From: Solicoccozyma terricola | Taxonomy: Eukaryota; Basidiomycota; Tremellomycetes; Filobasidiales; Piskurozymaceae | Direction: 5' to 3' | Length of the DNA: 64,000 bases | Assembly: GCA_001600875.1 (NCBI GenBank) | Contig: BCLD01000009.1 | Span: 924,010-988,009, forward strand | Shown: positions 8,558 through 43,820 of the stretch, one piece after another | Position numbering within the stretch: position 1 is the first letter of the stretch | Layout of the letters: the number at the start of each line of letters is the position of its first letter | Notes under the pieces: model-generated | The model's database searches: none | What the model was told of the DNA's origin: nothing | Seen by the model: the letters and a program-made list of their open reading frames with translations, nothing else | Program-made: the position numbers and the translations under genes

Positions 8558-8593
<36 letters not shown>

Positions 8594-8732
8594 NNNNNNN
8601 NNNNNNNNNNNNNNNNNNNNNNNNNNNNNNNNNNNNNNNNNNNNNNNNNNNNNNNNNNNNNNNNNNNNNNNNNNNNNNNNNNNNNNNNNNNNNCCCCCCC
8701 CCCCCCCCCCCCCCCCCCCACTCACATCCGCC
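8208..8732. other. Intergenic region with poly-C and an assembly gap
   Basis: Holds the YCG1 3' UTR and the UreG promoter. It contains a G-rich stretch (about 8340-8400), then 35 C (8559-8593), 100 N (8594-8693) and 26 C (8694-8719), ending 13 bases before the UreG ATG. The exact 100 N looks like a placeholder gap, so the true length of the C tract is unknown. Confidence 0.85.
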
Positions 8733-26400: not shown

Positions 26401-28693
26401 ATGCTCGCCATCACTTCCCTACTCTGTGCTACGATCCTCGCTGTTGGTGTGAATGGCCAAGTCACCGCGACGGGTACGATGGTGAGTGGGCGGTGGGCGG
26501 TGGGCGTGGTCGCGGTCGCGGTGGTCGCGGTCTTGGCTTTCGCTTGGCTGCTTGGCTGCGTTGCTTGGCTGACTGCTTGGCTCTATATCACACTCGACGT
26601 CATTCACAACCACCATCACCACCACCACCACTAACCATCAACCAACCACCAACGATATCCCTCCCCCCCCATCATCAGGGTGTAACCAACCCCGCGGAAC
26701 CGTCCCTCGGTACATCAGTCAATCAGACATCGTATGCTAGGTTGTTGAGTGTTAATAGCGTGGATGATTTGTGAGTCGGAGAGCGAGAGAGCGAGCCTAG
26801 CGAGCTTTATTCCGCGAGCGAAGCGAGCATTCCTGTCTTCTGTCTTTGCGGAGCGAAGACCAGGCTCCCGTCAGGGAGCTCTTCTTCCGCGAGCGAAGCG
26901 AGCATTCCTATCTTCTGTCTTCGCGGAGCGAAGACCAGGCTCCCGTCAGGGAGCTCTTCTTCCGCGAGCGAAGCGAGCATTCATCTCTTCTGTCTTCGCG
27001 GAGCAAAGACCAGGCTCCCGTCAGGGAGCTCTTCTTCTGCGAGCGAAGCGAGCATTCATCTCTGTCTTCGCGGAGCGAAGACTATTGTCTTGCGAGCAAG
27101 GCGAGCATTCATTCCTCTGTCTTCGCTCGCGATACGCTCTCAGAATACGTTCCTACGCTCGCCTACTCTCTTCTCTTGTTCGCGGAGCGATCGAGCAATA
27201 CTCGCACTCCAGAGAGTATATGTCTTCGGACAAGGGAGAGGAAGGAAGACCGGGAGGCCCACTGATGGAAAATCATATCTTGTCGTTTTTACTTTTTCTT
27301 TCTTCCGCTGCTGATCTGAATTCAAAATACTGATCTTTCGTCCCTCCATCCACCTTTTTCCCGCTATCTTTACATCAGCTGCATCTTCGCTCCACCTGTC
27401 CCAAACTCCGTGATCGGTAACACAGAGACAGAAGAGGTAGCTTGGTGTGTTCGTGAGTTTTGGTTGTTGGTTTCGCATCGCATCGCACAACGGGGCAACA
27501 CGGACTGATTCCGGAAATTTCATCGCCTGGGTTTTTTCAATTTCAAGAACCTCGAAATGACGCTCGTGTCATCCCAGATGGTACCCTCCAGGCCGTGCAT
27601 TTTGTGAAAACACCTCTCTACGTCCAGGTTATGGGGTGAGTTGACTTGTCCCCCCCCCCCCCCCCTCGCGCGATACCTGTCCACTGACCACGCCACGCCC
27701 TCCTCAGATGGGGAGACTTTACCAAGCTCAACATTCAAACGGGCGATCAAGGTGGTGAACTCGATCCCCACGGTGCAACCGGTTTGGGTAACCCAATCGG
27801 AGGAAACGTAACTTCAAACGTAACAGGTACCGACGTGCACTACGAAGAGTGGATGAAGTGAGTTGGTTAGGCCGGGGGGGGGGGGGCAAGTCGATGGATG
27901 CGATGGATGCTCATACTTCTACTGCAACTCATCAGCTACATGTCATACACCCAGTTCTGTATCCGTGTTTGTACCTCGGAGAACAGCACGTACTCTGCTG
28001 GTGAGTGGGAGAGCGCGGACGGGGGCGTCGTTCATAGCCTACTGCCATACTGATCGTACCCCAATCCACTCGCAGCCCTCGAATGCCAGCACACTCTTGA
28101 CGAGATGGTGGGTTTTCTGCTCTCTTCGTCTTGGTCGAATCACCCCGCCGAAAATCGATTCTAACATAAACCCTCGGCCCTTTCCTTTTCTCCCTCGTGA
28201 ACCGTGATCTAGGGTTGCCAATGGTGAGTCCATCTCAACACGGCTAAAATTCCCCACCACACCCTATCCTTTAGTCAAAACCTAACATTCCCCATCCAAC
28301 TCTCACCACAGGGTCATGCCAGGAGACTACAGCCAGACCGGTTTCACATCATGTGATGCCGATTCTGCTTTCCCACCTGGTATTTACCCACAGGCAAACG
28401 GTTCCACTTCGACTTTTGCTCAGAGGTACACTGGTGAGCACGCCGAGTCTCTTCGTCGTCTCGTCGTAAGGTGAATGCTCATAATGGTTATTTTTTTCTT
28501 TTCTTTTTCATCGATAGGTTCTTACACCGGCGCCGACGGAGCTACATCGTTGTTCACCGTTGGTGAAACCGTCACCCCGCAAACTCCATACTCCACCCCC
28601 GCTTCCTCCAACTGTGTGACCTACTCCTCTGTCGGTAACGGTGAGTGATTGTGCCCTATCGCGATGGAGGCATTACCAAGATCTGAACCCCCT

Positions 28694-28782
<89 letters not shown>

Positions 28783-29200
28783 CGTCAACCCTTCCAGGCA
28801 TCGCCTCCCTCTCTGTGACAGCCGGCAATGTCACCGCTTCCACCACCGCCGGCGCTTCCGGTGCCAGCAATGGTGCCTCATCTGGTACAGCCGCCGGCTC
28901 TGCTGCCGGTTCCATGGCGACCAGTGCCAGGTCGTCTTCTTCCGGCGGATCGTCTGCAGCTGCTTGTGAGTATTGACGGTGGAATGGAATTGACCACGGG
29001 ACGCTATAACCGCTGAACCGTTCGACCCCCATCCTATCCCATCCCATCCCATCCCATCCCATCACACAGCCGGCGCCGCGACATCCAAGAGCGCCGCTTA
29101 CATGACTCACGGTGGCAACCGAGACGCATTCAACTACGTCCTTACAGGCGGTCTCTCCCTCTTTGCTCTCGTTGCAGGTGCAGGCGCCTTCTTCTTGTAA
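26401..29200 (+). CDS. Macrophage-activating-glycoprotein-like surface protein
   Basis: Secreted, probably membrane- or GPI-anchored glycoprotein of a family conserved in basidiomycetes. Exon 1 (26401-26481) encodes a signal peptide, MLAITSLLCATILAVGVNG. Family blocks follow: CIFAPPVPNSVIGNTE, EVAWC, NDARVIPDGTLQAVHFVKTP, YVQVMGWGDFTKLNI, GGELDPHGATGLGNPIGG, FCIRVC and CQWVMPGDYSQTGF. A Ser/Thr/Gly/Ala-rich stalk then ends in a hydrophobic C-terminus (LTGGLSLFALVAGAGAFFL) immediately before TAA at 29200. N-glycosylation sequons (NGS, NVT, NST) are frequent. Two introns are abnormal: 26771-27378 (608 nt, repeat-filled) and 28641-28797 (88 C). The name reflects the usual annotation of cryptococcal homologues; molecular function is unproven. 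Confidence 0.85.
26775..27210 (+). repeat. 75-bp tandem repeat / hairpin element inside an intron
   Basis: Copies begin at 26811, 26886, 26961 and 27036, exactly 75 bp apart, with only a few substitutions between the first three; the fourth diverges after about 25 bases. Each unit has a GCGAGCGAAGCGAGC block, a hairpin (GTCTTCGC-GGA-GCGAAGAC) and a second hairpin (GCTCCC-GTCA-GGGAGC). An inverted copy of the first block (CTTCGCTCGCG) lies at 27121-27131. The whole array lies inside the 608-nt intron 26771-27378, and the same element occurs at 42493-42915. Confidence 0.93.
28694..28781 (+). repeat. 88-nt uninterrupted poly-C tract in an intron
   Basis: A pure run of C, 14 bases upstream of the 3' splice site (AG at 28796-28797) of intron 28641-28797. 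It takes the place of a polypyrimidine tract. Its true length may differ because homopolymers are error-prone to sequence. Confidence 0.95.
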
Positions 29201-41329: not shown

Positions 41330-42122
41330 TTTTTTTTTTTGGTTTGGTTCTGTGAAGAGGGGGAGAGGGGAGGGGGGGATTAGTATATGGGTTTGGGAAT
41401 GGGTACGTGGGTGGGTACGTGGGTGAGGAGTTGGTGGAGTTGGTGATGTCGGTAGACTTGATCAATGAAATGGAACGGAACGTCGAAGGGATGGTGTGGT
41501 ATATCCAATTTTGATCGATTCAATTTTTTCTTTATCGGGTGGATATCGAGGATTGGGTCCCTAGTTGGATTGATTTCCTGGTGAACCCTTCAATCCTTCA
41601 TTCACTGCATCCAATCCTCTGGTAACCGCCCCACCCATCAAGCTTTCCCCATCATCCCCCATTCAAACACTTTCCGGAGTCCCAATCCCAATCCAAATCC
41701 ATCTTGCGCGAGACCGAACCGATCCTTTTAAATTTTCTTTTCCAATCCCCGAGTCGTCGATGTTTTCGTCCATTGCAAGAGAGTATCCTAATGCACCATA
41801 TGTTGACTCGTACTCGTACTCCGACTCCCCACCCACGTTCGAACGGTACAGGAAGATAGATTCACTCACTTGACGGGGACCGTAAACTTGATGTGTTGGG
41901 CTGAGGGGCTAGGAGGGGGTCTTTGTCTGATGATGGATGGGAGGGGCAGGGGGGGAGTGTGGGATGGGACGGCGAGGAAGTGATTCACGCGTGAGTTTCG
42001 GGGTTAAGAGGGTGGGGAGGGGGAGGGGCAGGAGGGGAGGGGCAAGGGGGAAACTGTTGTTAACGCCGATAGAGGGACGGGGGGTTTCACGTGTCAGAAG
42101 GGAGGGGATTCACCCACACCCC

Positions 42123-42166
<44 letters not shown>

Positions 42167-42356: not shown

Positions 42357-43820
42357 ATGGTCCGTATCTCCGTCCTCAACGATTGTCTCAACAACATCGT
42401 CAATGCAGAGCGTAGGGGAAAGAGGCAGGTCTTGATTAGGCCGTCGTCAAAGGTCGTCGTCAAGGTTTTGTCCGTTATGCAGAAGCATGGTGAGTCGCGA
42501 GCGAAGCGAGCATTCTTCCGCGAGCGAAGCGAGCTTTTGTATCTTCGCGGAGCGAAGACCAGGCTCCCGTCAGGGAGCTCTTCTTCCGCGAGCGAAGCGA
42601 GCATTCATTTCTTTGTCTTCGCGGAGCGAAGACTATTGTCTTGCGAGCATAGCGAGCATTCCTCTTCTTCGCGAGCGAAGCGAGCACTCTTTTCTTCGCG
42701 AACGGAGTGAGCAATACTGTCTTTGCGAGCGCAGTGAGCGATACTCTCTTCCGCGAACGGAGTGAGCAATACTCTCTTTGCGAACGCAGCGAGCGATACT
42801 CTCTTCCGCGAACGGAGTGAGCACTACTCTCTTTGCGAGCGCAGCGAGCAATACTCTCCTCCGCGAACGGAGTGAGCAATACTGCCTTTGCGAGCGCATC
42901 GAGCAATGCTCTCTCTCTTCCACCTTTGTCCCCGGAACGAGGGTACACCCACCCATCCACCCTCTCATCCACCCTACCCCACCACACCCACCCAAAATCG
43001 GAGTCATAACTGCTTGGTTCCTTGCAAATTCCCACTGGATCCTTTCTTTAAGGCTACCGAAAGATCCAAACCCCGTCATCTACCATCTCAACCTTTTCCT
43101 CGAAAGAACGAAAGGGTTGTCACTATCTTTATCGGCGTCCAGGAGACCGGACTGTGTGGGCGATTTTTTCAACGATTCAAGGCCTACGGCCGGGGTCGTT
43201 GGATTGCTCAACGATTTGAAGATGTGAACGGATGGATAGAATTAGATATCCGGAACATTTCCTCTCGTTTTTTCCCTTTTCTTTCCTTGTGCTCGTTTCT
43301 TACACACCCCCGCGATGACCAAACCACACGTACTGACATCCTCCCTCCGCATCGTTCACCCTCGCTCGCCCGCCCGCTCGCTTCGTTTTTTGTTAGGCTA
43401 CATTGGCGAATTCGAGCTCATCGATGACCACCGTGGTGGTAAGATCGTCATTCAGTTGAACGGTCGATTGAACAAGACTGGTGTCATCTCTCCCAGGTTC
43501 AACGTCACCTTGGACTCTAGTGAGTTACCGCCCGTCCCTCTGATGATGGGGCCCTGCAGCAATATCTGATACCCCTCCCCCCCTCCCCCCTCTTCCCTCC
43601 CCACAGTTGAGAACTGGGTCAACTTGCTCCTCCCCGCTCGTTCGTTCGGTAAGATCATCTTGACCACCTCGGCCGGTATCATGGACCACGAGGAGGCAAG
43701 GAGAAAGCACGTGAGTCGTTGGTGGTGCAGTTCGTCCCCGTACGACCCCGACCCATCCACTGAACACTTCTTTCATTGCGCTTGCAGACCGGTGGCAAGA
43801 TCCTCGCTTACGTCTACTAA
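42357..43820 (+). CDS. RPS22: 40S ribosomal protein uS8 (S22/S15a)
   Basis: Four exons (42357-42489, 43397-43519, 43607-43710, 43788-43820) total 393 nt, giving exactly 130 residues, the standard uS8 size. They read [100 protein letters not shown] and [10 protein letters not shown]. Introns 2 and 3 are normal (87 and 77 nt), but intron 1 is 907 nt (42490-43396). Its first half is filled with the same hairpin repeat seen in the glycoprotein gene. Confidence 0.97.
42493..42915 (+). repeat. Intronic hairpin/tandem repeat element (second copy)
   Basis: It starts three bases into RPS22 intron 1. Positions 42542-42661 match 26993-27110 in the glycoprotein intron almost base for base, including both hairpins and the distinctive GACTATTGTCTTGCGAGCA. 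From about 42680 it changes into a degenerate array of about 28-bp units of the form GCGAACGGAGTGAGCAATAC plus TCTCTT, alternating with a GCGAGCGCAGCGAGC variant, about nine units in all. An inverted GCTCGCTTCG lies at 43376-43385 near the 3' splice site. Confidence 0.92.

Follow-up and report, generated by a model that had tools for sequence, protein, structure and literature searches.

Arrays of short hairpin-forming repeats that belong to one dispersed family stand directly behind 5' splice sites in the genome of Solicoccozyma terricola, oriented in the sense direction of their host genes and concentrated in early introns. The explanation we favour, to which an even chance is given, is a putative non-autonomous, tandemly repeated hairpin element that has been copied into existing introns directly behind their 5' splice sites. 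The family came to light in the window, the stretch of 64,000 nucleotides of contig BCLD01000009.1 that was analysed here, where a sequence-only reading had noticed that two oversized introns in unrelated genes open with the same hairpin repeat. That observation holds, and it understates the extent of the family.

Array intron 1 (26771..27378, + strand, 608 nt) is located in a gene for an MP88-type mannoprotein (model 26401-29200), where it lies in phase 2 and splits the Phe codon of a DDFC motif. Array intron 2 (42490..43396, + strand, 907 nt) is located in RPS22 (CDS model 42357-43820), lies in phase 1 and splits the Gly codon of KHGY. A gene finder set the borders of both where they had first been proposed, at 26771-27378 and 42490-43396. 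Trusted introns free of arrays have a median length of 86 nt (quartiles 70 and 147, n = 257), and 24 of these 257 reach 300 nt or more. As the sequence-only reading had it, both window introns open with GTGAGTCG, the 5' splice site being GTGAGT in each case (26771..26776 and 42490..42495, both + strand). In intron 2 it is directly followed by CGCGAGCGAAGCGAGC, and in intron 1 a degenerate repeat (GGAGAGCGAGAGAGCGAGCC..., 26777..26813, + strand) extends from the splice site to the first good core hairpin.

Hairpin array 1 (26791..27107, + strand, 13 motif hits) was resolved by Tandem Repeats Finder into a 75-bp unit (26802-27082, 3.8 copies, 93% matches), and hairpin array 2 (42497..42905, + strand, 16 motif hits) contains a 55-bp unit (42654-42914, 4.7 copies); in both, the units are arranged head to tail and fall within the 10 to 100 bp that define a minisatellite. 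The first good copy of the core hairpin in array 1 occupies 26814..26829 (+ strand), with more copies starting at 26889, 26964 and 27039. A stem hairpin with a GGA loop (26914..26935, + strand; other starts at 26839, 26989 and 27061) is perfect, with the sequence GTCTTCGC-GGA-GCGAAGAC, and a loop hairpin GCTCCC-GTCA-GGGAGC is found in array 1 (26939..26954, + strand; other starts at 26864 and 27014) and again in array 2 (42563..42578, + strand). The 75-bp unit with two perfect hairpins that had been described is indeed present in array 1, and the reported block of about 120 bp common to the two arrays was recovered as well, 26993..27110 (+ strand) being 94% identical to 42542..42661 (+ strand). 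Behind array 1, the remainder of the intron (27108..27378, + strand) consists of decayed repeat and then of non-shared sequence up to the 3' splice site. The remainder of intron 2 (42906..43396, + strand) likewise reaches its 3' splice site. Over 26 nt it resembles locus L025, and beyond these no similarity to the other array introns was found. The window also holds runs of C (28695-28781, 8559-8593, 8694-8719 and 42119-42165), one of which is 87 bases long and lies within an intron of the MP88 gene, and C-runs precede the 3' splice site in several array introns (L040, L051, L025, L039 and L018).

The core of the repeat reads G1 C2 G3 A4 R5 C6 G7 N8 A9 G10 Y11 G12 A13 G14 C15 and is predicted under Turner RNA rules to fold as ((..((...))..)), namely two pairs, two G-A mismatches, two pairs and a GNA loop; this hairpin is not predicted for the opposite strand. 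In total, 380 cores were collected with positions 5, 8 and 11 left free and 3 mismatches allowed elsewhere, and conservation of the other positions is partly by construction, because the collecting pattern fixed them. All four bases are common at position 8 (T 145, A 135, G 56, C 44), and positions 5 and 11 covary (G-C 249, A-T 92, G-T 10, A-C 5) with the highest mutual information of all 496 column pairs. Both the G-C and the A-T form are found within 33 of the 47 arrays of the sample described below, and in the other three core pairs an A-T or T-A double change is carried by no more than 0 to 2 of the 380 cores. The covariation could be explained by a single old double change at 5-11 that then spread. 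Among 64 loose hits of the loop hairpin, the loops GTCA (22), GTTA (12), GTGA (2) and GCAA (2) were seen. GNA and GNNA loops closed by C-G are very stable in DNA, and GTCA and GTTA fall outside the GNRA class of RNA loops; stable DNA loops of this type would favour a step through single-stranded DNA. Computed DNA energies show no such extra loop stability, and a literature search for very stable GNA or GNNA DNA loops returned no printed support. A known structured RNA family was rejected as a candidate, since the window matched no Rfam family at gathering score; relaxing the cutoff to an E of 1 added two sub-threshold hits on the other strand of intron 1 (E 0.42 and 0.6) and none on intron 2.

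That the element is dispersed, as the sequence-only reading proposed from its two copies, was borne out by searching 23.9 Mb of genome in 33 contigs with the shared block and the core. The core GCGAGCGAAGCGAGCA, with at most one mismatch, gave 630 matches against 17 for the reversed control, and the loop hairpin gave 52 against 0. The shared block returned at least 125 matching pieces, the window's own included (40 of 135 candidates scored), and the 55-bp array returned 79. A GGTGAGT donor joined directly to the core was found in only 6 places with at most one mismatch, so the junction of donor and core is no fixed sequence. Arrays were defined by at least 3 motif hits with gaps below 120 nt, and were sought in the window, in 20 stretches of 8 kb (contigs 1 and 2) and in search loci of about 3 kb. 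The 20 stretches are the first 20 of 106 array clusters, some of the remaining clusters are covered by the 3-kb loci, and the loci were picked on repeat similarity regardless of gene context. Of the 48 arrays found, one at a locus end was dropped, leaving 47. At least one core match is present in 42 of them, with a mean of 3.45 per array; given the 630 core matches, about 180 arrays are therefore expected genome-wide, a figure extrapolated from arrays that were partly picked for strength. A prokaryotic or viral origin was considered and rejected, as a search of the viral and the prokaryote collections with one composite pattern gave no exact match.

The position of the arrays relative to genes was read from a home-made Viterbi gene finder. 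Its training drew on long frames in the window and in the 20 stretches and was then refined with the genes it had itself predicted; array introns were among the 264 introns used. Same-strand predicted introns hold 32 of the 47 arrays, opposite-strand introns hold 2, and 13 lie outside gene models. Against a prior of 0.127 per array for falling in a sense intron, the observed 32 of 47 has p = 2e-18, and the ratio of 32:2 between sense and antisense among the 34 intronic arrays has p = 7e-8; under a looser array definition, the counts are 34 sense, 2 antisense and 13 outside (n = 49). The sense orientation claimed from the two window genes extends in this way to the sampled intronic arrays, and the pattern that the sequence-only reading had named as fatal to its idea, copies scattered between genes and in both orientations, did not occur. 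Among the 13 arrays outside gene models, 10 precede a gene on their own strand at a distance of 191 to 766 nt, one is followed by an opposite gene, and two by the locus edge. Many of these outside arrays probably mark introns of untranslated leaders. The two antisense cases are a + array in L013, where the gene model is short of context, and a - array in L046.

Independently of any gene model, a donor scoring at least 5 was found within 60 nt upstream of 39 of the 47 arrays and was absent near the other 8. On the opposite strand at the opposite end the count was 6 of 47, and random places gave 12%. Within the 32 predicted introns, the distance from the 5' splice site to the array has a median of 15 nt (quartiles 9 and 26), which agrees with the placement directly behind the 5' splice site first noted in the window, and the distance from the array end to the 3' splice site has a median of 178 nt; the array is nearer to the 5' than to the 3' splice site in every one of the 32. 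The gap between donor and first core often holds degenerate GAGCG-like repeat, so the true array border is probably even closer to the donor. The host introns come early in their genes, ranking first in 17 cases, second in 9, third in 2 and sixth in 1 (n = 29, for genes whose start lies within the locus, with one intron cut by the locus end included and two genes counted twice), and 17 introns precede array introns in the same gene against 60 expected (28 array introns). Two genes, for NBP35 (L052) and D-2-hydroxyacid dehydrogenase (L041), carry two array introns each. With their arrays subtracted, the array introns still have a median of about 190 nt, more than twice the usual length. The donor GTGAGT is mildly enriched, being found in 21 of 32 array introns versus 116 of 257 others (p = 0.038) and versus 11 of 31 long introns free of arrays (p = 0.024).

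Judged by the reading frames on either side, the array introns are real coding introns. Among 18 junctions in 16 host proteins, 12 fall within a Pfam match and 6 do not, and the matches that span junctions include Ribosomal_S8, guanylate kinase, condensin subunit 2, adaptor small chain, NBP35 NTPase, TCP-1 chaperonin, lipoyl ligase, NmrA and She9. The RPS22 junction reads through inside Ribosomal_S8, and at both NBP35 junctions the protein continues without a break through columns that are conserved in Naganishia, Cryptococcus, Kockovaella and Vanrija. The MP88-type mannoprotein of the window has its best named relatives in Naganishia, Saitozyma, Cryptococcus and Kockovaella, which pointed to a Tremellomycete as host, and a further protein, P0001, differs from the window product by 2 residues outside one exon that is mis-set in the model. 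P0001 is encoded by a continuous 378-aa frame on a 1387-nt contig, compared with 2.8 kb for the window gene; being continuous in frame and shorter than the gene, this contig looks like a spliced transcript from the same or a very close species.

The array introns are alike at their 5' ends only. With the low-complexity filter on, array parts are alike in 429 of 496 intron pairs, whereas the sequence after the array is alike in 2 and the last 120 nt in 1. In the two pairs that are alike behind the array, the resemblance begins 7 and 18 nt from its end, as though the copying had run past it. With the filter off, many short matches appear between the remainders, and among the matches listed these are mostly C-runs. 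Because the arrays match and the sequence that follows them does not, the repeating thing is not the whole intron. Introner-like elements, by contrast, are whole introns in near-identical copies, according to PMC4457414, and near-identity across the whole intron was not found here; this restriction of the sharing to the 5' part is the clearest result against a classical introner. What stands of the introner-like behaviour suggested by the sequence-only reading is a dispersed, intronic, sense-oriented repeat placed behind the 5' splice site, and the likening to introner-like elements, as it was put, is not supported.

An introner-like element whose insertion makes the intron together with its 5' splice site, the 3' site coming from the surroundings and the 3' part having since diverged, is nevertheless an explanation to be weighed, although we consider it unlikely. 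The array start hugs the splice site, GTGAGT is enriched there, and introner families that carry the 5' splice site alone are described in PMC9860276. Under this explanation, a separate origin would be required for the non-shared 3' part of about 180 nt. The paralogs of the MP88 gene speak both ways on intron gain versus insertion into an existing intron. The array intron that splits DDFC in the window gene is absent from the paralog on contig C8, where the coding sequence reads straight through; this fits intron gain as well as loss. In a third paralog, on contig C1, the match begins at residue 58, the residue split by array intron 1. The C8 paralog has an array intron of its own, of 660 nt, which opens with GTGAGTCGCGAACG... 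after the codons for VAYCTK (L060:711-1370, its borders read by eye, as the gene finder model there is out of frame). The window gene has a plain 95-nt intron (27453-27547) only 2 nt from the corresponding place, which argues against an intron-making insertion and suggests, from this one paralog pair with its 2-nt offset, insertion into an intron that already existed. The offset itself may reflect intron sliding, or loss and re-gain; it also resembles the fungal introner-like insertions at 1 to 8 nt from other introns described in PMC4457414. A further point against intron creation would come from RPS22, whose array intron probably stands at the position of an intron in animal RPS15A.

A selected function, in which hairpins near the 5' splice site raise expression by intron-mediated enhancement or aid the splicing of long introns, is held to be quite unlikely. 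Elements of intron-mediated enhancement are promoter-proximal and orientation-dependent, and the arrays are both, lying in sense only and in early introns. Their hosts include basic genes, e.g. those for RPS22, NBP35, TCP-1 chaperonin, condensin and guanylate kinase, and the covarying core pair 5-11 would agree with a maintained structure. The whole window introns also fold stabler than 20 shuffles each (z -2.7 for intron 1 and -4.9 for intron 2). Over 32 introns, however, RNA folding was unsupportive. Splice site accessibility was 0.35 and fell to 0.29 when the arrays were shuffled (p = 0.17), the distance through the fold from one splice site to the other stayed the same (p = 0.82), and array folding stability had a mean z of -1.1, below -2 in 9 of 32; the idea that arrays improve accessibility or shorten the structural distance was rejected for want of a significant effect in folding. 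Within the 13887 nt of the arrays, GTGAGC is found 92 times and GTGAGT is absent, 3 or 4 being expected from length, which would speak for a function, but 53 of the 543 internal GT sites still score at least 5 as donors, and avoidance of donors inside arrays is weak at best. A zipper that would pair the array with an antisense stretch close to the 3' splice site, an idea prompted by the RPS22 fold, was rejected as a rule, since an antisense core (at most 3 mismatches) follows the array in 1 of 34 introns, the single case being window intron 1 at 248 nt before the AG. At the end of the RPS22 intron, 43361-43385 reads CTCGCTCGCCCGCCCGCTCGCTTCG, which is antisense to its own array with pairing predicted, and this stretch falls below the pattern used for that count. 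The wide variation of the arrays in copy number and length also speaks against a function.

The arrays are freshest near the splice site, as shown by units that grow more divergent with distance from the 5' end of the array (mean rho 0.22, with a positive value in 23 of 35 arrays; p = 0.006, with symmetric ends and at most 2 mismatches, the strictest setting); mismatches per unit are 0.54 in the first half and 0.81 in the second (p = 0.02). Ordinary minisatellites, grown by slippage within each intron and tolerated only near the 5' splice site, would account for the tandem structure and for the GAGCG-rich degenerate stretches beside donors, but this account is very unlikely. Composite units are common to introns on different contigs, with best matches 83 to 94% identical, which rules out independent slippage as the source of the shared units, and tolerance alone leaves the bias between sense and antisense unexplained.

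Among 114 listed places, 11 array pairs are less than 2.5 kb apart against 1.35 expected, and 9 of the 11 point apart at 0.9 to 1.4 kb, none being convergent. The core matches entered in this list extend into contig 9, and 4 places known solely from the pattern that joins donor and core were set aside. This geometry is what divergent arrays serving as the terminal inverted repeats of a transposon of about 1.1 kb would give, a reading that is scarcely credible, given that no second array lies within 2.5 kb of 92 of the 114 places listed, that arrays of the same stretch are mostly not alike, and that the paired arrays lie in or before predicted genes of opposite directions. Close pairs were noted on C1, C5, C6, C14 and C17, and where two genes diverge from one promoter, arrays may tend to be present in both. 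Local spreading between neighbours was also rejected, and it fails to explain the clustering, because the 12 same-stretch pairs are no more alike than others (p = 0.87). Two of the 12 do rank high, with the two window arrays in the top 1.4% of 1128 pairs and one pair in L041 in the top 3%.

To return to the favoured explanation, copies of the hairpin element would have been added, in sense orientation and behind a GTGAGT-like donor, to introns that were already present and that mostly come early in their genes. Once placed, they would expand and homogenise into tandem arrays, the freshest units staying near the splice site and decay proceeding towards the 3' end. New copies would be made by copying along the sense strand, with the 5' splice site as the anchor. 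The fixed left border, the direction, the freshness at the border and the unshared right part together point to copying in the 5' to 3' direction from the splice site. One possible route is template switching on the GTGAG common to units and splice sites, and an alternative is that a single strand capped by a hairpin is captured in DNA that is being transcribed; candidate machines would include template switching, single-strand capture in R-loops and an unseen transposase. In the introns listed, read by eye, the repeat behind the splice site is mostly out of the phase expected from priming on GTGAGC.

A bolder form of this explanation, possible but distinctly tentative, sees in the arrays a selfish element of a class of its own, with the 5' splice site itself as its landing site, in early introns and in sense direction. 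Its source would be a hairpin-forming single strand, either the displaced coding strand or the 5' intron RNA, and the array would grow from the splice-site end. If this were true, a selfish element would lengthen introns without making them, hidden where sense insertions do little harm. The family bears on the questions of what makes introns longer and of how repeats get into them, and would separate the making of introns from their lengthening. A splice-site-anchored family whose fresh and decayed units stand side by side in a single 24-Mb genome would permit a direct test of what guides insertion, the candidates being the splice site itself or the R-loop and U1 binding there.

In a literature search that covered titles and abstract openings of part of the literature, no hairpin array anchored at 5' splice sites was described, and comparison is therefore made with systems that are similar in part. 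The very stable GCGAAGC-type mini-hairpins resemble the core with its GC-GNA-GC and the loop hairpin with its GNNA loop, and the hairpins described here differ from them in being natural, in the tandem G-A mismatches that flank the inner pairs, and in the A-T variant of one pair. Bacterial repeats of the REP/BIME type are likewise short palindromic units that are dispersed and form small arrays; the present units are eukaryotic, strand-fixed relative to genes and placed behind 5' splice sites. Intronic minisatellites share the tandem units, here of 27, 55 and 75 bp, and the variable copy number, whereas in S. terricola a single unit family is found at many loci with near-fixed distance and direction to the 5' splice site. 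The likeness to introners (PMC9860276 and PMC4457414) lies in a dispersed family that sits in the introns of unrelated genes and is tied to splice sites, extending for some introners to the 5' splice site alone (PMC9860276). Unlike introners, the arrays share a tandem repeat at the 5' end only, the branch point and 3' splice site region is not common to them, and one copy stands nearly at the site of a paralog's plain intron. The family is close to dispersed intronic repeats and to introners, and there is a fair chance that it is a kind of its own.
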